DNA of 64,000 bases from Myxococcales bacterium. GTDB taxonomy: Bacteria; Myxococcota_A; UBA9042; UBA3505. How positions within the stretch are numbered: position 1 is the stretch's first letter; the number at the start of each line of letters is the position of its first letter. The notes under the pieces were generated by a model. The model was not told the DNA's origin. It was given only the letters and a program-made list of their open reading frames with translations, and ran no database searches. Of the stretch, positions 29,705 to 42,607 are shown one piece after another. The DNA is taken from the NCBI GenBank assembly GCA_002728755.1, contig PBVT01000085.1, forward strand, positions 171,488-235,487. The letters are read 5' to 3'. Position numbers and translations under genes: made by a program.

Positions 29705-32251
29705 TCAGGTGGAGCAGTATTCCATGTCCGTCTCGTTGGACCAGGCGCAACCGGTCCAACCATAGAACCACTCGGCATCCTGACTTCGGCTACGGGCGGA
29801 CCCAAGCGCTGCGGTCTGGGGCGCAACAGGGGTTGTTGGAGGTGTCGTTTCACAACCTTCCTCGGTAATGGCCAGGATGACTTCATGATCCTGCTCGTGA
29901 CGGTTGCGGGCTCGGTCACGGACCACGATGCGGATGGTGAGACTCTCCAGCTCGTACTCTTCTGGAAGCTCCAGCTCGCCGCTGTAAAGGCCCGTCTCTG
30001 TATCGAGGGTCAGCCGGATAGAGTGCCGGGGATCTTCGATGACATAGGCTTCTACCGTTCGAACCTGCTCGAGGGGATCGACTTCGATGGTGATACGTTG
30101 GCCGGGTTCTACGTATTCCGGAAGTATGGCCTCGAATTCCGGCTCGGTTCCGTCGATGGTGTATTCGATGGATTTCCACTCCATCCGACCGTTGCTATGA
30201 ACGATTTGTACGCGGATATTGTAGACGCCATCGGTGACCCAACGGGGAACCAGGAAGCGTACAGACCAACGGTTACGGATGTCGTCGTACTGAAGCCGTT
30301 TGACCAGCCCGAAGGGGAAATAGGCTACAACTTTACGTGCATCTTCCGGTGCCACAACCGTGAGGACGGGGTCGCCTGGGGGGATGTTCGCCTGGGACAG
30401 ACGGATTCCCTTCATGGTGTCGATAAGCTTCTTGTCGAAGCCCTGTCGGCCGCGTCGAATCGCCTCTTTGATCTCGTCGGTCTTCAGAGACTCGGGCACA
30501 GCGAGGAAGGTGGTGTAGGGGGTAACCAGGTTATAGACGATTCCCAGTCGGGTGATCTCGGACACCAGCTCGGTGGCTCCGCGAGCCTGGTGAAGCTCCT
30601 TTAGATGGTCGATACGATCGTTCGCCCATAACTTCTCGATATGTGCATAGTCATCGGAATGGTCGGGCAGCGTGACGTCCATATTCAGTTCTTTGGATTC
30701 TCCTTTTACGAGACCTCGTACGCGTATCTTCGCGGTTCCAGGGTTGGTGTAGCGCCCGAATACGATGACTTCGCCGTCACGATAGAGATCAGGCAGGCGT
30801 TTGGGGTAGATGGAATGAACCTGTGCGCCCTCGATGTCGAGCTCGAGATCAACCATGAGGGGCATGGAAATACGGTCGTATAATCGTGCCATCTCTCGTT
30901 CGATCTGGTTGTCATTGGCGATAAAGGTGGCGATTCCACGGTTGTCGCGTGCCAATCGCTCAAGAAACTGGCGGTTGATGCCACGACCGGCGCCGAAACT
31001 GTAGATTCGTACGGATCGGGTCTTCTTGCGTACTTCGGACAGAACCACCTCGGCCGGATTATTACCCTGGCCATCGGTTAGAAAGATGACGGCTTTGGGG
31101 CGTTCGGGGTTGGGAGATTTCTCAAGGATGTTCAGCGCGGTCAGCAATGCATCTTTGATATTCGTTCCCCCTCGTGTTTTGAGAGCCGCAATTCGAGTAT
31201 TGGCGTTGGCGCGGTTTTCGTCAGACGCCGGTAGAAGATTTGCGTAGAAGGGTACGGCTTCGTCGTCGAACGCGATTACGTTGAAGTGGTCTTCGGGTTG
31301 GAGCTTTTCGAGGATAGAAGAGAGCCCCAGTTTACTCTGCGCAAGGGCTTGGCCAGTCATGCTACCGGAGATGTCAGTCACGAAGACAATATCTCTACCG
31401 ATGACTTCGTCCTGGGTCACATGGTCTTTGGGAGAGACCAGCAGCATGAAGGAGCCGTCACCATCTGTATCTCGATACGATACAAATCGAAGGGCGTGGT
31501 CGTCGGCTTTGAGGCTATAATTGATTTGGAGATCTGTGCTTAGTTCTGAGCTCTTACCCTCGAATACAATCTTCTTATGGCGCGGCCCAAGAGAGCGAAC
31601 CGTTCCGTTGAAACCGTTCGTTTCGACGTTCTCGATTGGCAGATCGTCGGTGATGTCGAAGCTAAGAGAAAGAAGAACGTCGCCTGTGGGCAGATTTTCA
31701 TGAGGAATCCGGTAGCTGATCTTACCTTCGGCGCGTTGCAGAACCTCGGTAGTGCGAACCTCGATCGGTTTGGTTTCACCCGGTTTTACGGGGTAGACAC
31801 TGAAACGGAACGTACTCCCCGTTTGTTCCAGGATGCCGGGGTCTCGTTGCATGCCCGTCAGCTCTTGGTACACCGTAGTGGCGGCCGCCTTCTCCAGGAC
31901 CTCACCAACGATACGCTCATCACCATTCCAGTAGCTGAAACCGTCCACCAGCGCATCTGAGGACATGGCCAGTCGACACTGGACCTCGACGTCTTCAGAG
32001 AGAGTGTTCTGGAACTGAAAGGTCGTCTGGGTAGCTGCCACCTGATTATGAATGGCTCCTTCCAAACGCTGATAGGTTTGAACCAGACTTCCAGATTCTA
32101 CGGCTCCCTGCACCGTACGTGCGGAAAAGGGAATGGCATAGGCCTGTTGCAGATAAAACAGAAATAGAAAACAGGACGTGAGAATGGCCGCGATATGAAG
32201 CAGCCCGCCACGCACATAATGAAATCCTTGGGTCTCCATAAATTCAAACAT
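29705..32251 (-). CDS. VIT and VWA domain protein (inter-alpha-trypsin-inhibitor heavy chain-like), exported
   Basis: Signal/TM LLHIAAILTSCFLFLFYLQQAYA; VIT region; VWA MIDAS DIVFVTDISGSMTGQALAQSKLGL. ATG 32251 with SD GGAG preferred; the track start 32338 lies upstream of a promoter. Confidence 0.88.
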   Translation of the reverse strand: MFEFMETQGFHYVRGGLLHIAAILTSCFLFLFYLQQAYAIPFSARTVQGAVESGSLVQTYQRLEGAIHNQVAATQTTFQFQNTLSEDVEVQCRLAMSSDALVDGFSYWNGDERIVGEVLEKAAATTVYQELTGMQRDPGILEQTGSTFRFSVYPVKPGETKPIEVRTTEVLQRAEGKISYRIPHENLPTGDVLLSLSFDITDDLPIENVETNGFNGTVRSLGPRHKKIVFEGKSSELSTDLQINYSLKADDHALRFVSYRDTDGDGSFMLLVSPKDHVTQDEVIGRDIVFVTDISGSMTGQALAQSKLGLSSILEKLQPEDHFNVIAFDDEAVPFYANLLPASDENRANANTRIAALKTRGGTNIKDALLTALNILEKSPNPERPKAVIFLTDGQGNNPAEVVLSEVRKKTRSVRIYSFGAGRGINRQFLERLARDNRGIATFIANDNQIEREMARLYDRISMPLMVDLELDIEGAQVHSIYPKRLPDLYRDGEVIVFGRYTNPGTAKIRVRGLVKGESKELNMDVTLPDHSDDYAHIEKLWANDRIDHLKELHQARGATELVSEITRLGIVYNLVTPYTTFLAVPESLKTDEIKEAIRRGRQGFDKKLIDTMKGIRLSQANIPPGDPVLTVVAPEDARKVVAYFPFGLVKRLQYDDIRNRWSVRFLVPRWVTDGVYNIRVQIVHSNGRMEWKSIEYTIDGTEPEFEAILPEYVEPGQRITIEVDPLEQVRTVEAYVIEDPRHSIRLTLDTETGLYSGELELPEEYELESLTIRIVVRDRARNRHEQDHEVILAITEEGCETTPPTTPVAPQTAALGSARSRSQDAEWFYGWTGCAWSNETDMEYCST

Positions 32252-32287
32252 GATCGTCTCCGGGGTTGAAGGTTCAGCCCCGTATAG

Positions 32288-32303
32288 AGCAGAGATCGTG
32301 CCA
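32288..32303 (-). promoter_or_regulatory. Candidate sigma54 (-24/-12) promoter for VIT-VWA gene
   Basis: Minus strand TGGCACGATCTCTGCT against consensus TGGCACGNNNNTTGCW; GG/GC spacing exact; ATG 32251 lies 37 bp past the element. Confidence 0.7.
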
Positions 32304-32315
32304 GATCGGCCGAAA

Positions 32316-32357
32316 ACCATAAAGGCCAATAAAACCATAAGGTTATGGCTTTATGGT
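32316..32357. promoter_or_regulatory. Nested inverted repeats, candidate activator binding sites
   Basis: ACCATAAAG (32316-32324) with CTTTATGGT (32349-32357), enclosing CCATAA-GG-TTATGG (32335-32348). Confidence 0.55.
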
Positions 32358-32375
32358 CTGCGAGCGCACCCGGTT

Positions 32376-32420
32376 TAAGTATTGTAATAAAAGATTAGTA
32401 GTCTATAAATACAATACTTA
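32376..32420. repeat. Perfect 11-bp inverted repeat with 23-bp spacer
   Basis: TAAGTATTGTA (32376-32386) / TACAATACTTA (32410-32420). Confidence 0.75.
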
Positions 32421-32894
32421 TCTGGCTATGTGGCTCGTTGTATCTTCGATGCGTTCCCGGATCTCGGCTGGGGTGACTGCGTCGGGTACCCATTGGAGCG
32501 TAGGGAATCGTCGTGCCAGATGTTCGTAGCGCTGTGGTTCCCGTGAAAAATCATAGGCTACGATTACGGGAAGGGAGTCGAATCCATGCTCTTTCAGATC
32601 TGCCAGGATGTATAAGCCCTGGTTGTTCTGAATATATTTGAGGCCGCGGTTTTCATCGCCATTATGGATTCGTGTGGCGTGTTCGAGGTCACCAATAAGG
32701 TCCTCGATGGGGATGCGATCGAAGCGCATATCCAGGTAGATGACGTCTACGGTTTCGGAGGCCAGGATCTGCCGGGCTTCCAGCCCAGTATGAGCCTGTA
32801 GATAGGTATAGCCCCGAACAAACCGCGATAGATTCTCCAGATATTCGTTACCGTCTTCAATGATCAGAACAGTGATTTCGCGCTCTGTATTCAC
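32418..32894 (-). CDS. Atypical stand-alone response-regulator receiver
   Basis: ITVLIIEDGNEYLENLSRFV...DVIYLDMRFD; long insertion after the Asp; LPVIVAYDFS. Confidence 0.72.
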   Translation of the reverse strand: MNTEREITVLIIEDGNEYLENLSRFVRGYTYLQAHTGLEARQILASETVDVIYLDMRFDRIPIEDLIGDLEHATRIHNGDENRGLKYIQNNQGLYILADLKEHGFDSLPVIVAYDFSREPQRYEHLARRFPTLQWVPDAVTPAEIRERIEDTTSHIAR

Positions 32895-35713
32895 GACTCG
32901 TCCTCTGTGTTGGGATAGGTTCTAGGTAACTCCAGCACAACGGCTTTGCACCAATCCGAGCTCTCGTCTCGTACATCGAGAGTCCCCTCATAACGCGTTG
33001 CCAGGCTAGCGGCCAGTCCCAACCCTTCTTCGACGGTTCGATTACGAATCTGTTCGACGGTGAGTTTCTTCGGTGAGCGGTCGCGAACCTCGATGCATAC
33101 CCGCTCAATCGCGGTGATAGGATCGATGGTGCAATTCACGCCTATACCCACCTGAATGACGGTGTGCTTTTGTCGAATCGACGACTCGATGGCGTTGCGT
33201 ATGAGGTTCGTCATGATCACCCCAAAACTATGTCGTGGGATCAAGCACCAGCAAGGCAATGTAATCTGGATGTCCATATCGATGGGGCTGAAATTGACTT
33301 CGGAGAAGGCAGGCTCCCGGATGGTCAGACTATAGAGGGATTCCAGGTAATCCGAATCGATCTTGAGGACACGAATTTCATCCAAAAGGCTGCGTACGGC
33401 CTCATAGCCTTCGGTGTTGAGCAGGCGTGTCGCTTCTTCGAGGGAGCGCTTCAGCCGCTTACGGTTGGATGTTGATTCGAGCATTTTCGGTTCGAAGAGT
33501 GGCTGCACATGTTTCAGAGTATTCATGCCACGAACCAACGCCGAGATTGCTGGGTCATTATGCAATAGGTTTAATCGCATTCCATGGGAGCGACCGATCT
33601 GTTGGAGCTGCTCTACGTAGGCGTTGAGTTTATCGCTCACACCGTCATCCCTGCCCGTTCCAAAGAGAGCCAGGCGCGTATTTGATATGGACTCGAAGGA
33701 GTCGTCGTTTTGTTCGAGTACTGTCACCAGCCCCGTAAGCATCATGGTGTTATGTTTGAGCACTTCATGACGAATTGCAGCGAGTATCTGTTGTACTTCT
33801 GGGCCTGTTTCGGGGTGTTGTTCGATCAGGTCTCGTAGGGTTCCCCCGCCGAATCTACGACGGTAAAGGGTCAAGATAAGGAGAAGTAGAAGAAGAACAG
33901 CCAACACACCGAATACCATTAGATTGCGAAGACGAAGTCCCGCGGAGGTGTGAAACGATTGGGCTTTCTCGCGCCACCGTTCGTGTTTGGACCAGTCCAC
34001 GGCGCTATTCAGGAAGGCGCTGCTATGGTCGCGGCATCGGTTCAGTTGTGCGATGCGACCCAGATCAGAGAATACCTCCAGGAGGCCGGTAGCTTTCTGA
34101 TTGAGGGGCAGACAACTCAGGATCATATCCAGCCGGCGAATATGAAATATACCCAGTGGATGGGTGGCGTCGTGGGCGGCCCGGAAGGTTTTACGGGCTT
34201 TGGCCATCTGGCCAGACTGTTCATAAATAAGGGCCAGGCGATGTAGGGCTTGTCCACTGATATCCCCTTGTTTCAGGGCCAGCTCATACTGTTGCATGGC
34301 ATCTTTCAGGTTTCCTTCGGATGCATACAGTTCACCGAGGGTCGTGTGGACGGACTGGTGGTCGGTAGAGAGGGATAGCAGGGTTCGAATCGCCTGATTG
34401 GTTCGGCCGATATCATGCAGGGCTCGCGCGCGAGTCAGAGCATTGGCTACCTCGGGTGTAAGCCCATCTGGTTGGAATGTGGGATCGGTGCGACTGTCCT
34501 TTTGGGCGATGGTTCGCGTGAGGGTTTCTCGAAGTTCCAACGCTTCATTGTGTTTTTTCGATGTGTCTGGAAGGGCCAGGAACTTCTCCACATGGAATAA
34601 TGCCAATTCGGGTTTACCTACGGCGGGATAATTACGGGCGAGTCGGAGATGAACCCCATGCCAGTCGGGGCGTAGGGTTAATGCACGTTCCAGGTGCCGG
34701 AGCGCCTCATCAAGCCGGGGCTGGTTGGGCCAGGTTCTATATAGGTTGGCGATTCGCACATGAACGATAGGGTTGTCCGATTGCAGAGATAGGCTGCGAA
34801 GATACGCCAGCTCGGCGTCCGTATGTCGTCCCATCTCATGGAGAACCTGACCCAGCTGACCGTAGATCTGTGGTGCTCCACCGGAGCTCCGCAGTGCATC
34901 TGTTAGGGCCACCTCTGCGGCCTCTAATTGGCCTTCGTTTCTAGACTGACGAGCCCGCTCGAGGAGGTCGAGACTGTCTCCTGTGAGCGCCGGGTTTTGT
35001 AGTACGGTATTGCAGTAGTTGTTACGGTGTTGCTCTATGTTCTGGATACGAGCCTGGACCTCCAACCGAATGGTGGGATCCTCGTATACCGTGCGGTACC
35101 AGTTCAGGGCCTCGACAAGCTCACCCATCCCTTCGAAGAATCGACCGATTTCAAAGCGGACTTCATCATCCAGGGCGTCTAATTGTTCGAGACGGAGGTA
35201 GAGGGTGCGCGCTTTCTCTACCTTTCCAACGAGTGCTTGGACACGGGCTTCCATCAAGACAAGGTCCGGATGTTCTCCTCGGACGCTACGAGAGATCTGG
35301 ATATGCCGTTCTGCTCTCTTCAATCGCTTCAGACTGGAACCGGGCCGGGTCAACAATTCCGCCAGATTTTCATGGGCATCTACATTGCGGGCGTTGAGTT
35401 CTACGGTTTCTCCAAAGAACCGCTCGGCCTCTGCTTCGTTACCCAGATGCAGATGTGCTTTACCAAGTTTATATGTGATGCGGTGGTTTTCGGGGGCGTG
35501 TTGGTAGGCTTTCTTGTAATGCTTTAGAGCCGTTACGTACTTCTTTTTCTTATATGCACGGTCCCCTTCGGCTTTGAAATGTACCCCAATCATATTGTCG
35601 AAGGGGTTCTTCAGAATCAGGTCGCTCGGCGCATCTGCGGCCCAGACACTCCCGGATAAAACCAGCAGATAGATGAACAGCACAGGCATGCTTATGTTGG
35701 ATGTACGGCTCAC
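32891..35713 (-). CDS. Sensor histidine kinase with periplasmic TPR region
   Basis: Signal peptide; many TPR-like repeats; TM LMVFGVLAVLLLLLLILTLYRRR; IRHEVLKHNTMMLTGL (H-box-like); IMTNLIRNAIES (N box); EGLGLAASLATRYEGTLDV. Confidence 0.82.
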   Translation of the reverse strand: MSRTSNISMPVLFIYLLVLSGSVWAADAPSDLILKNPFDNMIGVHFKAEGDRAYKKKKYVTALKHYKKAYQHAPENHRITYKLGKAHLHLGNEAEAERFFGETVELNARNVDAHENLAELLTRPGSSLKRLKRAERHIQISRSVRGEHPDLVLMEARVQALVGKVEKARTLYLRLEQLDALDDEVRFEIGRFFEGMGELVEALNWYRTVYEDPTIRLEVQARIQNIEQHRNNYCNTVLQNPALTGDSLDLLERARQSRNEGQLEAAEVALTDALRSSGGAPQIYGQLGQVLHEMGRHTDAELAYLRSLSLQSDNPIVHVRIANLYRTWPNQPRLDEALRHLERALTLRPDWHGVHLRLARNYPAVGKPELALFHVEKFLALPDTSKKHNEALELRETLTRTIAQKDSRTDPTFQPDGLTPEVANALTRARALHDIGRTNQAIRTLLSLSTDHQSVHTTLGELYASEGNLKDAMQQYELALKQGDISGQALHRLALIYEQSGQMAKARKTFRAAHDATHPLGIFHIRRLDMILSCLPLNQKATGLLEVFSDLGRIAQLNRCRDHSSAFLNSAVDWSKHERWREKAQSFHTSAGLRLRNLMVFGVLAVLLLLLLILTLYRRRFGGGTLRDLIEQHPETGPEVQQILAAIRHEVLKHNTMMLTGLVTVLEQNDDSFESISNTRLALFGTGRDDGVSDKLNAYVEQLQQIGRSHGMRLNLLHNDPAISALVRGMNTLKHVQPLFEPKMLESTSNRKRLKRSLEEATRLLNTEGYEAVRSLLDEIRVLKIDSDYLESLYSLTIREPAFSEVNFSPIDMDIQITLPCWCLIPRHSFGVIMTNLIRNAIESSIRQKHTVIQVGIGVNCTIDPITAIERVCIEVRDRSPKKLTVEQIRNRTVEEGLGLAASLATRYEGTLDVRDESSDWCKAVVLELPRTYPNTEDES

Positions 35714-37344
35714 GAGCGAAGCTCCCGGACCTTGAGGCCAAGTTGATTGAAACGAAGCCGTATAGCTCGACTTCGTGCCGTATCTCCGAGGAGTAGGTTG
35801 GCCATTGCTTCAAAGTCTCCTTCTGTTCTTTGAAACAAAGAAAGGAAGTATTGTCGTTCCACATTTTTTGCGACCGCGTTCAGGCTCTCGTCGGCTTCCA
35901 GTTGGACCATGCATTGATCGAAGTCCTCTTCTACAGTGCGGTCGTCTGCTCCCAGCCCTTTCGAGCTCGCGAGTAGCTCGGAGACCAATACGGGATCCAC
36001 CTGAAACCGGACCGACTCCAGATGTAAGCCGGAATGGACCGCGTCGACGGCTCCTACCAGTGTAAAGCTGACGATATTATGGATCACCATGGAGAGCTCT
36101 CTGAGATTTCCCGGCCAGCTATGGCCGATCAATCGCTTCCAGGTGGGTTTGGCAAAAATGAGTTCGATGTGATCGCCGCTGGAACGATTGCGGTGTCCAA
36201 CAGTCAGACCCAGCTCTGTGTTGGCCTTAAGCCCCAGGGCTTCCACCAGCTCACCATGCAGTACCTGGATTTCGGGATGCTCTAATGAGGACGCAACGAA
36301 ACGTTTAATCAGGAATTGAATATCTTCCGGCCGGTCTCTGAGCGGCGGTAGAACCGTTCGAGTAGCAGGAGAGAGGCGCATGTATAGATCGCGTCGAAAA
36401 CGACCTTCGCGCACAGCGTCTACTAATGGGGTGTTGCTCGCTACCACCACCTTTACATCGACCTCGATCTCTCGATTCGACCCCAGAGGACGGACTCGCC
36501 GTTCCTGGAGAACATGGAGTAGCTGCCGCTGGTTTTCGGGAGACACATTCTGTATTTCATCGAGAAATAATGTGCCGCGGTGTGCGAGCTGAAATACGCC
36601 ACGGCGGTCTTCGACGGAGCCGGTATAGGCTCCACGTACCGAGCCGAATAGCGTGCTAGAGACAAGATCATCCGGGATGGTGGATAGATCCACAGCCACG
36701 AATTGGCCAGTTCGCCCGCTATTTCGATGGATGAACCGCTCGGCTAGAAATGATTTGCCAGTTCCAGTCTCTCCCTCGAGTACCACTGGTAATGGGCCTC
36801 GAGATACCACCGCGAGTCGTCGTCGAAGACTGCGCATATGTGAGTCTGCTCCCCATAGGATACCTTCTTCCTCCAGCTCGAGCCGAGCTTCAGCCAGGGC
36901 CGAATTGATATGAATTCGCAGAGCGTCGAGATCTTCGGTACCAAAAAAGTAGGTCATCGACTCACCGGCAACTTCGGTGGCCAGATCAACCAGGGAGAGG
37001 TCTTCAACCGAGGTGAGAAGTACAACCGGTAGGTGGGAGTATTTCTGACGAAGCTCTCGAAGAATGGCGACCCCCTGGAATCGCCTTGTCTGTCGTTCTG
37101 TAAAGTTTGGGCCTAGAGGTAGGAGGCGCTCTGGTTCAATGTCGAACTGTACGTCGAGCAGGATCAGATCGACCGCGTCGGCATTCTGCTCCAGAAATGT
37201 GAGAGCGGTTGGACCATCGGGTACACGCGGCAATCCGGCGTCACCATCGATCGCGATGAGTTCAATCTCCGGCATCCGTTCTCCGAGGAGCCGTGCGAAT
37301 AGATCCCCGTCATCGATCAGTAGAACTCTGGGTTTCTCCGTCAC
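35710..37344 (-). CDS. Sigma54-dependent transcriptional activator (NtrC-type) with atypical receiver
   Basis: GETGTGKSFLAERFIHRNSGRTGQFVAVDLSTIPDDLVSSTLFGSVRGAYTGSVEDRRGVFQLAHRGTLFLDEIQNV; C-terminal Fis-like helices. Confidence 0.9.
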   Translation of the reverse strand: MTEKPRVLLIDDGDLFARLLGERMPEIELIAIDGDAGLPRVPDGPTALTFLEQNADAVDLILLDVQFDIEPERLLPLGPNFTERQTRRFQGVAILRELRQKYSHLPVVLLTSVEDLSLVDLATEVAGESMTYFFGTEDLDALRIHINSALAEARLELEEEGILWGADSHMRSLRRRLAVVSRGPLPVVLEGETGTGKSFLAERFIHRNSGRTGQFVAVDLSTIPDDLVSSTLFGSVRGAYTGSVEDRRGVFQLAHRGTLFLDEIQNVSPENQRQLLHVLQERRVRPLGSNREIEVDVKVVVASNTPLVDAVREGRFRRDLYMRLSPATRTVLPPLRDRPEDIQFLIKRFVASSLEHPEIQVLHGELVEALGLKANTELGLTVGHRNRSSGDHIELIFAKPTWKRLIGHSWPGNLRELSMVIHNIVSFTLVGAVDAVHSGLHLESVRFQVDPVLVSELLASSKGLGADDRTVEEDFDQCMVQLEADESLNAVAKNVERQYFLSLFQRTEGDFEAMANLLLGDTARSRAIRLRFNQLGLKVRELRS

Positions 37345-37726
37345 CTTGCATCTCCCTGATGATAGTTGTGATTACCTGCGCGACCGCGCGGAAATCCTGT
37401 AATACTGCCGTTCGTTGGATTGGCTTGTTGTCGTTGATTTGACCTTCCCACGCCAGGGCTTGTTCCACCGCCTGTTGTATTCGATCGAACACAGCATGAG
37501 CCTTGGCTTCTGTGCTGTGCGTTGTCACAAAAGACGACCAGATCTCTTGTGCCGAGCGGTTCCCACTGGGTCCTGTTCGAGTTTCCTGTAATGCTTTGAG
37601 TACGGCTTGGCGCAGTTCCGACTCGGGGCAATCCTCGGGTAACCAGGCGATAGGTAGCGTCAGGTATTTTCCGAGGTCATGTTGGAGATCCAACAAGGCG
37701 TCGAGGAGAGGTTCTAATGACTTCAT
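37310..37726 (-). CDS. Small helical protein of unknown function inside the signalling operon
   Basis: MKSLEPLLDALLDLQHDLGKYLTLPIAWLPED...; overlaps the 5' end of the activator gene; start at 37726 avoids most of the overlap with the upstream gene. Confidence 0.6.
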   Translation of the reverse strand: MKSLEPLLDALLDLQHDLGKYLTLPIAWLPEDCPESELRQAVLKALQETRTGPSGNRSAQEIWSSFVTTHSTEAKAHAVFDRIQQAVEQALAWEGQINDNKPIQRTAVLQDFRAVAQVITTIIREMQGDGETQSSTDR

Positions 37727-37736
37727 TACCAAGGGT

Positions 37737-39434
37737 TTACTCTCCAGCCTGGTTCGGGTTGGAATCAACCACGCTCAAACCACCATTGGTTGCAACATAG
37801 ATGAGTCCTTTGTAGGGCACTGTGGCATGCACTTCATTGCCTGCCAAGCCGTCCGTGGTTGAGATGTTGGTTACCGTCTCGCCGCGCAAAATACTCAGCC
37901 CGCTGAGGCTGCCAATCCAGATATCGTTTCCAATTTGCTGTACGGAGAGAGTGTAGTCATCCAGGAGCCCATCCTGAGTGGTTAATGTGGTCCATTGTCC
38001 GTCCTTCATGACACTGATCCCCCGGGTACATGTTGCGACCCAGAGGTTGCCCTGCTGGTCGAAACTCAGATCCATAACCCAGTTATCCGCGAGCCCAGAC
38101 TGATCGCTAATGGCCGTGAATTTTCCACCTCGTTTTCGAATGAGGATTCCCTGGTCGGAAGTACCAACCGCAACCGTATGACGAAACGCGGCGATTCGAG
38201 TGATCTTGTTGGAGCGGATACCAGCCTGTCGATAATAGCGCTTCCAGCGGCGACGGTTCATACGGTGAACCGCCCCCGTATCTGCCATCCAGGCAACACC
38301 GGAGACGGGATCAACGGTCACTCCGTTAACGGCCGTATGCCAAGGGCATTTCTGACTTGTGTCTTCGACACAGTCATCGCGGCGATAGATCTGAAACCTT
38401 CCCTTGGAATCAACAATGGTCAATCCGCGATTGGTGGCCACATAGAGCTTTTTCCCGTCGGAACTCAGGTCATTGATCATGTCGGAAGCCAGATATCGGG
38501 GGCCATGGAAACGAGTCCATGTCTGCCCGTCAAACCGACAAAGTCCCCGGTCGAAACTTCCGACCCATAGATGCCCGGCGAATTCTGTCAGGGATGCCAC
38601 GCGATCTCCGCAGGGCATACCGGCGATCTCCAGCTGTTTCCAGCCTTCTGGTGATTGAAGATGAACACCTTCATCCGTCGCCAGAACGAATTGTTTCTTC
38701 CATATAGCGGCATCGTGAGCCTGTAGATGTGCGTATTGGTCGGCTTGGACTGGCGTACCCGTATCTGTCAACGCGAGCGCTTTTCCAATCGTAGCGTTGG
38801 TCTCCAGGACGTGATTCCGACGGATATAACCACCCGCCGCTGTCCGGATATGAAGCTCATTCCCAACGAACGCGATATCTCGTACCGGTGTTGGCAAGGT
38901 CTGTACAATCTTATGCCCTTTCAACCAGATGGAGCCGTCGAGGCTCCCCGCGGCCCACATACCATCTGGATGTAGCGTTAGAGCGTAGGGGGAGATCTCT
39001 GTTTTGGTCTCTAGAACCGTGCCATCTGGTAGATGTTCAAATACGAACCCATCATCGCGACCGGCGATAACTCCTGTGGGCCCAGCCGCGAGACTCAAAT
39101 AGCGCCCTTTGGCGATGATCTCGAATCGCTTCGTGTTCTGTTTCAGCCGAGCTAATCCCGTCTCGGTTGCAACCCAGATTTCACTCCCGAAGGCAACGCA
39201 ATCCAATACGGTATTACCAGGGAGCCCGTCGAGAGCACCCCAGCTCGTATTCGTATCGGTACCAATCCGAACCAGCCCCGCACCTCGCGTTCCAATCCAG
39301 AGATGGTCTTGTTGTGGCGCCAAACAGGTTGCGTCAGAAGGGTCGCCCAGGTTGGATACCACACGAGGGGTCCCAAATGCCGTTCCCCAGCACAACAGAC
39401 TTAGTACCAACCCGATCATCATTATATTCTTCAT
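37737..39434 (-). CDS. Exported beta-propeller protein (two-component regulator propeller repeats)
   Basis: Signal peptide MKNIMMIGLVLSLLCWGTAFG; repeats such as DHLWIGTRGAGLVRI, SEIWVATETGLARL, KLYVATNRGLTIV, GNLWVATCTRGISVM, DIWIGSLSGLSIL, LIYVATNGGLSVV. Confidence 0.87.
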   Translation of the reverse strand: MKNIMMIGLVLSLLCWGTAFGTPRVVSNLGDPSDATCLAPQQDHLWIGTRGAGLVRIGTDTNTSWGALDGLPGNTVLDCVAFGSEIWVATETGLARLKQNTKRFEIIAKGRYLSLAAGPTGVIAGRDDGFVFEHLPDGTVLETKTEISPYALTLHPDGMWAAGSLDGSIWLKGHKIVQTLPTPVRDIAFVGNELHIRTAAGGYIRRNHVLETNATIGKALALTDTGTPVQADQYAHLQAHDAAIWKKQFVLATDEGVHLQSPEGWKQLEIAGMPCGDRVASLTEFAGHLWVGSFDRGLCRFDGQTWTRFHGPRYLASDMINDLSSDGKKLYVATNRGLTIVDSKGRFQIYRRDDCVEDTSQKCPWHTAVNGVTVDPVSGVAWMADTGAVHRMNRRRWKRYYRQAGIRSNKITRIAAFRHTVAVGTSDQGILIRKRGGKFTAISDQSGLADNWVMDLSFDQQGNLWVATCTRGISVMKDGQWTTLTTQDGLLDDYTLSVQQIGNDIWIGSLSGLSILRGETVTNISTTDGLAGNEVHATVPYKGLIYVATNGGLSVVDSNPNQAGE

Positions 39435-39467
39435 GACATACTCCCTTCTTGGAATATGTCGATCAGA

Positions 39468-39483
39468 AGCAATCTGTAGGCCA
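39468..39483 (-). promoter_or_regulatory. Candidate sigma54 (-24/-12) promoter for propeller-led operon
   Basis: Minus strand TGGCCTACAGATTGCT: TGGC plus exact GG/GC spacing plus TTGCT; ATG 39434 lies 34 bp past the element. Confidence 0.62.
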
Positions 39484-39520
39484 GTTTTGCTTTCTGCCGA
39501 AACGAAGTGTTATTATCCAG

Positions 39521-39538
39521 TAAAACCAACGTGTTATG
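39521..39538. promoter_or_regulatory. Candidate upstream activator site TAAAACCA-N4-GTTATG
   Basis: Same element occurs at 32330-32347 upstream of the other sigma54-like promoter. Confidence 0.5.
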
Positions 39539-39601
39539 AGATGCTTGGGGCGTCCATGAAACTGCTCCCTATGCTCTCATATGTTCGCAATAACAGCAAG
39601 T

Positions 39602-39620
39602 AATCTATAGATAATAGATT
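39602..39620. repeat. Perfect 7-bp inverted repeat
   Basis: AATCTAT-AGATA-ATAGATT in the intergenic region between the J-domain gene and the propeller operon. Confidence 0.5.
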
Positions 39621-39637
39621 GTGTCTGGCGTGCTGTC

Positions 39638-42607
39638 TTAGCGTTGGCAGAAGACCCGGGTGTCGGCGAATTGGGAGATCTTCTGGAAGGTGGTGAGTTG
39701 GCTCGTGCAGTCCGCGCCCGAGATGCCTGTGTTACGGCCGGAGTATCGCTTGCAGGCGGGGGAGTCTGCACCACAGACTTCGCAAACAAACGAGCCGAGC
39801 GCGAGACAGGCCGACGCGGAATCGGCTCCTTTTGCTGACGGAGTGCGTCGTTTCGTGCGAGAGGCCTGGTGGTCACGCTTTCTGGGGGTGAGCAGAGTTT
39901 TCAGTGCACTTTCCATATGTTTTTGTCGAGGAAGTATCTTTGTCATTTGAAGTTCGTTCAGGGCTTTCCATAGGGAATAGGCATCGGTTGGAAGATCTGC
40001 GACGAGGTGCAGGGTGTTTCGATCGTGTCCGAGGATGATGCCGACGGAGTCCATGAGTCCAAGTTCTGCAATCAATCGACAATGACCGGGGTTCAAGTTG
40101 CAGAGGGTCTCCTGAAGAGGCCCCAGAGCTTTGGTCACTTTCTCGAAATCGGCCCAGAACATAAGAAGAATATTTCGTGGTGCCAGGCTGAGCATGCGGT
40201 CGATTTCCGGATGTTTGGCTCGGGTGCTTCGAGCGGATAGCCAGGTCGCAGACTTGGCTTCCGAGCCAGCACTCAACACAAATCGAGAACCGGTATTCCC
40301 AGAGACAAGTCCCAGGAATTGTCCAAAACCCGCACGGAATGCTTTGACGTTCTTGTTGGCTTCACGCTTAAAGCCCGCGTCTCCGAGTCGAAAAACGAGA
40401 CCGTTGAGCGGTGGATCTACCACCCGGTCGCCTCGCAGATACCCATATCGGGCGGACATAGCGAGAACATCGTGGACTTCTGCCCAGCTATTCGTTCGCC
40501 GAGGGATGGTTGTGTTGAGATAGCTGCCGAGCTTCGATAGGAGGCGTGCGCGAACATAATGCCATAGGTCTAGCCCGCGAGTTTCCATGTATTGACCGGA
40601 GATCATGGCGTTCAATTGAACAGCGTGCCGTTTCGCCCCGAAGAAAGCCCCCGAGATGGTGAAGTCATCGATGGTGGTAAACCAGTCATGTAGACCTAAT
40701 TCAACCTCTCTACGCAGGGTGCGCGACTTTCCGACCAACCATTTTGCAATGGGTCGCAGATAGGGGTCGATGTAGACAAAGTCCCGAATATGACGGTCGA
40801 GGGTGAAGAAACTGTACCCTTCAGGGGGAACCGCAATCAGTGAGGTGGGAGCTGGAGCCAGAATGCGATGGGTCTTCTCGTTGAGCTCGTGGTCTTTGGG
40901 AAGTCGACCATCGGCTTCAACCCGTAATCCACGGGACGTGGGGAAGGCTCGTAATCGTATATATTCAAGGTTCTGGCTCCGCACCATACCCTTGGTTCTT
41001 TCGAGGAGAAGAAAGTTTGAGAGAGTAGAAATCCCCTCGATAGGAAGTCCGACAGACAGAAACTGCTCCTTTACGGCCAAAAGCGTCGATGCGGCTTCCT
41101 GTGCGATTCCTGGTTTCACACGTCCTGGCCAGAATTCCAGTGTGACCCGCGCTCGATCTTGCAGGTTATTCTGTAGTTGTGTGCAGGTGTCTTCTGGAAA
41201 ACGAAGATATTGCGGCTCATCGGAGATACGGACATGGGTACGTAGATCTTCGACATATAGAGTGCCTTTCTCTGTTTTGAGTTTTACATAGGGCACGTCA
41301 TCTTGAACTTCTCCGCTACGTGCGAGGAGCTCGTCGAGGCCGGCACGGTCCGTAACTGGCAGGAACCATGTCGTCGAGAGATGTTGGTTTTTGAGCCAGA
41401 TAACGATATGAGCCGCTTGATCTGTCGCCAGCCCCATGTCTTCCCAGACGGTCTCGGGGTGATGCTCTGCGGTTTGAGTTTCTGGCATTGCTCCGATGCG
41501 ATTGAGCACCCAGGACAGCGCGGGTTGGCCGGCATAACTTAAAACAGCGATAGGATGGTCTTCGATGACGAGAAGCTGGTCTTCGCGGTCTCGAGGTGTT
41601 GCGGTCTTCTTCGTGGACCCCGCTGTGGCCGTGCTGTCTTCACTATCGTCGGTATCCGCGGTTTCTTCGACATCGGACGTTTCGACGATTTCGGTCGCTA
41701 AAATCGCCGCTAGATCTGGCACTGCATCCGAATCGACATCTTCCCCTCCGGAGGTCGTCGCCTGTTGACTACCGGACCGTCCGGGTAGTGGTAGTCCTCG
41801 TCCCGACTGGACCCAGAGCCCAACAAGAAGCCCCAGGTATACCAAGAGCATTGTCGAGCGAAGAAAGACCGTGCGTCCCGGGGCCAGCGGTTTGGGAAAG
41901 GATCCCTCCGCGGATTCTGGGCGCGCTGGAGGCACCAGAGCCATGAGCTTTCGTCGTGCACGTATATTTCCAAAGATGCCCTGTAGATTCGAGACAACCG
42001 GTAAGGGGCTGAGCCAACCAAAGAGTAAGCTGGAATTGGTCAGCTCTCGGAACTGGTTGAGGCCACAGTCACGACAAAATGGTCCTGTAGCGACCGTCGG
42101 CTCCTTAAAGATCTGCTTTGGGTAGACTCCATACAGAGAAGCAGGGACGGCTGGTACCGAGGCGCAGAGGCTACAGCCCTCCCATTTCTGTTCTTCCGGT
42201 TCGGTTTCTTTGAGTCTGTCTTTGAGCTTTTTGGGTTTCCGAGCAGCGACTGGCTGTTCGTAGGGTGACCACACTGGATCCCCAGGATCACTCAGAGGTG
42301 GTGGCTGCAGAGGATCGCCAAAATCGAGTTCTTCCCCGTCGTCGATCTCCGCTTCTGCGGGTTCCGCCTCACCTGTGAGATCCAGAGTAAGCGTAAGATC
42401 GTACAGTTGCCGACTCTGTGGGTCCGATAGGATCTCGTAGGCGAGGGCGATTTCCTTGAAGTGGAATTCTGCCTTCTCGCGATCGTCCGGATGTCGGTCT
42501 GGATGCCATTCCTGCGCGAGCTTGCGATACGCCTTCCGAATGACGTCATCCGGGGCGTCTGGTGCCACGTTTAAGATGGCGTAGAAGTTTTGGTCGTTAG
42601 AATCCAG
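39638..42607 (-). CDS. Membrane J-domain (DnaJ-like) protein with Cys pairs and a large C-terminal domain
   Basis: Extended N-term DSNDQNFYAILNVAPDAPDDVIRKAYRKLAQEWHPDRHPDDREKAEFHFKEIALAYEILSDPQSRQLYDL; CSLC...CRDC; TM TMLLVYLGLLVGLWV. Confidence 0.8.
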   Translation of the reverse strand: MDSNDQNFYAILNVAPDAPDDVIRKAYRKLAQEWHPDRHPDDREKAEFHFKEIALAYEILSDPQSRQLYDLTLTLDLTGEAEPAEAEIDDGEELDFGDPLQPPPLSDPGDPVWSPYEQPVAARKPKKLKDRLKETEPEEQKWEGCSLCASVPAVPASLYGVYPKQIFKEPTVATGPFCRDCGLNQFRELTNSSLLFGWLSPLPVVSNLQGIFGNIRARRKLMALVPPARPESAEGSFPKPLAPGRTVFLRSTMLLVYLGLLVGLWVQSGRGLPLPGRSGSQQATTSGGEDVDSDAVPDLAAILATEIVETSDVEETADTDDSEDSTATAGSTKKTATPRDREDQLLVIEDHPIAVLSYAGQPALSWVLNRIGAMPETQTAEHHPETVWEDMGLATDQAAHIVIWLKNQHLSTTWFLPVTDRAGLDELLARSGEVQDDVPYVKLKTEKGTLYVEDLRTHVRISDEPQYLRFPEDTCTQLQNNLQDRARVTLEFWPGRVKPGIAQEAASTLLAVKEQFLSVGLPIEGISTLSNFLLLERTKGMVRSQNLEYIRLRAFPTSRGLRVEADGRLPKDHELNEKTHRILAPAPTSLIAVPPEGYSFFTLDRHIRDFVYIDPYLRPIAKWLVGKSRTLRREVELGLHDWFTTIDDFTISGAFFGAKRHAVQLNAMISGQYMETRGLDLWHYVRARLLSKLGSYLNTTIPRRTNSWAEVHDVLAMSARYGYLRGDRVVDPPLNGLVFRLGDAGFKREANKNVKAFRAGFGQFLGLVSGNTGSRFVLSAGSEAKSATWLSARSTRAKHPEIDRMLSLAPRNILLMFWADFEKVTKALGPLQETLCNLNPGHCRLIAELGLMDSVGIILGHDRNTLHLVADLPTDAYSLWKALNELQMTKILPRQKHMESALKTLLTPRKRDHQASRTKRRTPSAKGADSASACLALGSFVCEVCGADSPACKRYSGRNTGISGADCTSQLTTFQKISQFADTRVFCQR

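Follow-up and report, generated by a model that had tools for sequence, protein, structure and literature searches.

Two sigma54-type promoters share a possible IHF-type bend site and a distal candidate enhancer

Two sigma54-type promoters in the 64,000-nucleotide stretch of Myxococcales DNA analysed here (the window), one in front of a gene for a secreted VIT-VWA protein (promoter A) and the other in front of an operon that begins with a gene for a secreted propeller protein (promoter B), share a proximal element and, further upstream, a second element, TATNTATAGAYTACT, which a previous sequence-only reading of the window had overlooked. We propose, with a probability of roughly 0.48, that the co-regulation of the two promoters is real, that the proximal element serves as a bend site of the IHF type and that the activator encoded in the operon acts from the distal element. 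The likeness between two sites would thereby be turned into a testable promoter anatomy, consisting of enhancer, bend site and -24/-12 element, for an unstudied surface-protein operon.

The presence of a common proximal element at the two promoters was confirmed. As the sequence-only reading had reported, TAAAACCA-N4-GTTATG occurs exactly at 32330-32347 (site A) and 39521-39538 (site B) in identical orientation, the minus-strand form of both sites being CATAAC-N4-TGGTTTTA; the identity between them reaches 17 of 22 bases (CATAACN4TGGTTTTAYTGG). The distances from the element to the T of TGGC, previously given as 27 and 38 bp, were 26 bp (A) and 37 bp (B) on recounting, which leaves the reported offset of 11 bp correct. 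For the VIT-VWA gene, position 32251, after GGAGACGATC, is the most likely start; it was preferred over that of a longer alternative frame from 32338, which would put part of the element inside the gene. The features concerned, all on the minus strand, are as follows.

29705..32251, minus strand: gene for the VIT-VWA secreted protein, 848 aa (PF08487, PF00092)
32288..32303, minus strand: sigma54-type -24/-12 promoter of the VIT-VWA gene, TGGCACGATCTCTGCT
32326..32347, minus strand: proximal element A, CATAACCTTATGGTTTTATTGG, the site first reported plus 4 bp; 7 of the 9 informative positions of WATCAANNNNTTR
32386..32426, minus strand: distal element A, candidate enhancer found by local alignment with B, core TATAGACTACT at 32397-32407
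39468..39483, minus strand: sigma54-type -24/-12 promoter of the propeller operon, TGGCCTACAGATTGCT
39517..39538, minus strand: proximal element B, CATAACACGTTGGTTTTACTGG; 8 of the 9 informative positions of WATCAANNNNTTR
39589..39629, minus strand: distal element B, candidate enhancer, core TATAGATTACT at 39599-39609 inside the dyad AATCTAT-N5-ATAGATT

Both promoters contain GG-N10-GC in the TGGC/TGC context, both have strong -24/-12 elements, and the genome encodes a single RpoN (PF04552, E = 1.2e-60). The orthologue of the VIT-VWA gene in genome G016 (55% identical) and that of the propeller gene in genome G007 (37% identical), both genomes being of the sister family f8, carry TGGCACGGCCCTTGCT and TGGCACGAGGATTGCT, respectively, just upstream of the start codon. 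These near-perfect -24/-12 elements strongly support sigma54 control of the VIT-VWA and propeller genes, as had been suggested from the window.

When the 160 bp upstream of A and B were aligned, the distal match extended over about 41 columns around TATNTATAGAYTACT (p = 0.005, 20-bp block shuffles) and was separate from the proximal one. The distal cores lie about 93-94 bp (A) and about 115-116 bp (B) from -24, a shift of 22 bp between promoters, compared with 11 bp for the proximal element; these shifts are close to two helical turns and one, respectively, indicating that helical phase is kept between the promoters. The co-regulation that had been proposed for the two promoters is supported by the common distal element and the kept spacing. 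No other copy of the exact 11-base distal core was present in ~0.6 Mb of the genome's DNA (overlaps counted). Distal element A overlaps the response-regulator gene, whose 3' end supplies its first 9 bases. Just past the stop codon of that gene, a perfect 10-bp inverted repeat, AAGTATTGTA / TACAATACTT (window 32377-32419), overlaps distal element A and represents a candidate terminator or operator.

The element also appeared elsewhere in the genome. Three more strong sigma54 promoters carry its core, AACN4TGGTT, at a distance of 63-75 bp from -24.

C22: gene for a fused MXAN_2561/MXAN_2562-type surface protein (MYXO-CTERM/beta-barrel)
C3: gspC followed by gspD (type II secretion)
C112: lipoprotein gene, with two copies of the element

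Enhancer-like palindromes were found further out at each of them, namely TGTCAGTTTGGCA at -188 (gspC), TGACACTTTGTCT at -201 (C22) and TGTCCCGGGACA at about -108 (C112), and the element therefore lies between a candidate enhancer and -24 at these three promoters; the same holds for A and B provided that the distal element acts as their enhancer. Strict helical phasing of all five sites was rejected, since the gaps from GGTT to -24 are 29, 40, 63, 65 and 75 bp, and a spacing of one turn separates A and B alone.

We considered whether the likeness arose by chance from AT-rich upstream DNA, aided by the comparison of many regions, and judge this very unlikely. Of 800 pairs of 70-bp stretches drawn at random from upstream of the genome's other sigma54-like sites, 0.6% matched as well as A and B over the 18-mer and 0.1% over the 22-mer, and a block shuffle of the two proximal 65-bp stretches gave p = 0.003 for the proximal match. 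A genome-wide scan, which had been suggested as a check, returned 21 matches with at most two mismatches compared with 13 for the reversed control; these counts, not far above control, favour chance and make motif frequency alone weakly informative, the enrichment being one of position and not of frequency. Also on the side of chance, 4 of the 16 exact AACN4TGGTTTT sites lie at strong sigma54 promoters, and the others are mostly within long open frames. Upstream of 95 sigma54-like sites, selected by -24/-12 alone with the motif ignored, AACN4TGGTT was present at 4 in the A/B orientation (about 0.15 expected) and at 0 in the opposite one, as against 0 and 1 downstream of the same sites in the two orientations, although one of the four is site A, two were already known from the originally reported motif, and the test is partly non-blind because the core was narrowed after C22 and C112 had been seen. 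With at least 11 matches to the 14 bases of the reported motif, 4 of the 95 upstream stretches were recovered, and none in downstream or far-upstream controls. AACN4TGGTT followed by TGGCN8TGCT occurred 6 times in this genome (once in coding DNA) and 18 times in 126 related genomes, which also argues against chance; a search for the TGCA-ended variant of this gapped pattern found nothing. The sixth match, C120, was set aside, as it lies inside a 504-codon open frame.

The proximal element would be a putative IHF-type bend site, an assignment that we hold at about even odds. Aligned in one register, the six sites at the five promoters agree with the IHF consensus WATCAANNNNTTR at 45 of 54 positions (column permutation, p = 0.0004), IHF having been chosen as the reading after the sites were seen; with A and B left out, the fit of the remaining four gave p = 0.0006. 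Each site agrees with WATCAANNNNTTR at 7-8 of 9 positions and none is exact, the T of WATCAA being replaced by C in five of the six sites and by A in the sixth. The genome encodes IHF-alpha (NF001401, 127.6 bits, above the cut-off of 111). IHF sites lie between enhancer and promoter at orp of Desulfovibrio vulgaris (PMC3897727), and an IHF site is found at the sigma54 promoter of the Vibrio fluvialis T6SS2 (PMC5963220); site A, TAACCTTATGGTT, resembles the latter, TAACTTATTGATT. The promoters described here are similar to these IHF-assisted ones in that an AT-rich YAANNNNTTGATW-like site stands between a distal enhancer, here a candidate, and -24/-12, and in that the gene for IHF-alpha is present, but differ in that their sites read YAAN4(T)GGTT with G for A in five of six. 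Counting against IHF, exact WATCAANNNNTTR was found at the genome's other sigma54-like sites once upstream and once downstream, with no enrichment, and the five main sites all point the same way, a constraint that IHF binding would not impose. The distinct palindromes of C22, C112 and C3 point to an element that goes with promoters of different enhancers and that is placed between enhancer and promoter, as IHF sites are.

The propeller operon encodes the activator that would complete this anatomy; its genes, again all on the minus strand, are listed below.

37737..39434, minus strand: secreted propeller protein (Reg_prop), first gene of the operon, with an orthologue in G007
37310..37768, minus strand: small conserved operon protein (open frame as listed; the probable start is slightly further in)
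35710..37344, minus strand: enhancer-binding protein with receiver, sigma54-interaction AAA+ domain (GAYTGS for GAFTGA) and Fis-type helix-turn-helix
32891..35713, minus strand: TPR and histidine-kinase-like protein (Pfam recognises the TPR repeats only; the kinase part is inferred from sequence)
32418..32894, minus strand: stand-alone receiver protein, last gene of the operon

We infer that A and B form a co-regulated sigma54 pair in which the operon-encoded activator would probably bind the distal TATNTATAGAYTACT, IHF or a close HU/IHF relative would dock at the proximal element and bend the DNA, and the -24/-12 element would hold the sigma54 RNA polymerase, to which the bend would bring the distally bound activator. 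Since the activator gene sits in the propeller operon, it is plausible from the gene order that this operon activates itself, and the VIT-VWA gene would be switched on together with it.

The local activator resembles the enhancer-binding proteins of the NtrC family in having a receiver, an AAA+ sigma54-interaction domain and a Fis-type helix-turn-helix, but differs from them in carrying GAYTGS instead of GAFTGA and in belonging to a conserved four-gene module with the small protein, the TPR kinase and a second receiver protein. This core module was found in more than a dozen further genomes, among which neither propeller nor VIT-VWA neighbours were detected outside family f8. Motif conservation upstream of the activator operon in further genomes of this class and phylum was tried and rejected, as the module is present there and the motif and a convincing -24/-12 are absent. 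Members of the activator family (35710-37344 in the window and orthologues L052-L074) mostly carry GAYTGS, GSYTGS or GAYTGA in place of GAFTGA and have a very conserved C-terminal helix (RLRFNQLGL), the four-gene module being spread over the phylum. In the PrsK-PrsR-PrsT/RpoN system, which controls PEP-CTERM surface proteins (PMC1569441, PMC9850573), a kinase, an NtrC-type regulator and a TPR protein are likewise combined with a repeated upstream motif and -24/-12 at surface-protein genes, but the TPR and kinase parts are joined in one protein here, no PEP-CTERM gene was seen in the DNA examined, and the local activator scored 163.4 bits against the PrsR model TIGR02915, below its cut-off of 502.6.

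The sequence-only reading had favoured the 35710-37344 activator as the protein that binds the proximal element itself; on this view the activator would drive both its own operon and the VIT-VWA gene, and perhaps the three other promoters as well. In favour of it, the operon of the activator is flanked by two of the five promoters, the AAC-N6-GTT core forms an imperfect dyad of a kind that would suit a Fis-type dimer, the orientation is constant, and the targets are secretion or surface genes. However, the sites lie 26-75 bp from -24, which is near for an enhancer, the other three promoters bear enhancer palindromes of their own, and the element fits both the consensus and the position of IHF. 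Moreover, the recognition helix of the activator is nearly unchanged in the sister family and -24/-12 is kept, yet neither the proximal nor the distal element was visible at the two readable sister-family promoters (G016 and G007), and no significant common element was found when A and B were aligned with them. The earlier assignment was therefore not supported, and we consider it unlikely; the activator remains the obvious candidate by position only, given that the genome encodes 13 sigma54-activator-type proteins. For the same reason of conservation, the activator's site is a candidate only. The distal element, at a usual enhancer distance, appears to be a better candidate enhancer of the local activator than the proximal one. 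A broader version, in which the element is a new enhancer through which a surface-sensing NtrC-type activator drives its own operon, the VIT-VWA gene, the type II secretion operon and the MYXO-CTERM/beta-barrel protein in parallel to other activators at the same promoters, strikes us as distinctly doubtful. It is similarly improbable that some other common regulator of surface and secretion sigma54 promoters, either a repressor or another of the 13 activators, binds the element; the same association and the abundance of activator genes would agree with this, but no other activator gene was seen adjoining the element and the fit to the IHF register would be a coincidence. To return to the bend-site reading, the proximal element would be a commonplace part of a promoter met in an interesting context, and judging from the palindromes it accompanies sigma54 promoters with at least two other putative enhancers.

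Nearly all genomes of the class that could be read have a near-consensus -24/-12 in front of gspC (L303-L332; G000:C3:3981-4200), and the palindrome TGNCAN3TGNCA was found 64-150 bp upstream of -24/-12 in 26 relatives and at -188 in the present genome; in several relatives, gspC adjoins a gene orthologous to that of the C37a activator of this genome, in most cases with an identical recognition helix. Type II secretion may therefore be under sigma54 control throughout the class, and such control with a conserved enhancer palindrome may be more widely useful than the original finding. The element was absent from the gspC promoters of the relatives, which counts against the bend-site reading. A rewiring of gspC from the class-wide enhancer to the element was rejected, because TGTCAGTTTGGCA was found just beyond the stretch searched first. 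The C22 palindrome has 7 of the 8 fixed bases of the gspC type, and at C22 the MXAN_2561-like and MXAN_2562-like parts are fused in one 665-aa frame behind a strong sigma54-type promoter (L254, G000:C22 from about 91506).

The repeat TGTCCCGGGACA is common to C112 and three other promoters, at least two of those three being for lipoprotein genes. It stands 84-96 bp upstream of four exact-consensus sigma54 promoters (L019, L085, L094 and L096; G000 C112, C111, C9 and C50), at least three of which belong to lipoprotein genes and one of which adjoins an FHA-type activator gene. In two genera, pilin-like genes (L281 and L283; G007 and G016) carry GTGTGCAAAG-TTGCGTAG upstream of a perfect -24/-12, representing a further candidate enhancer.
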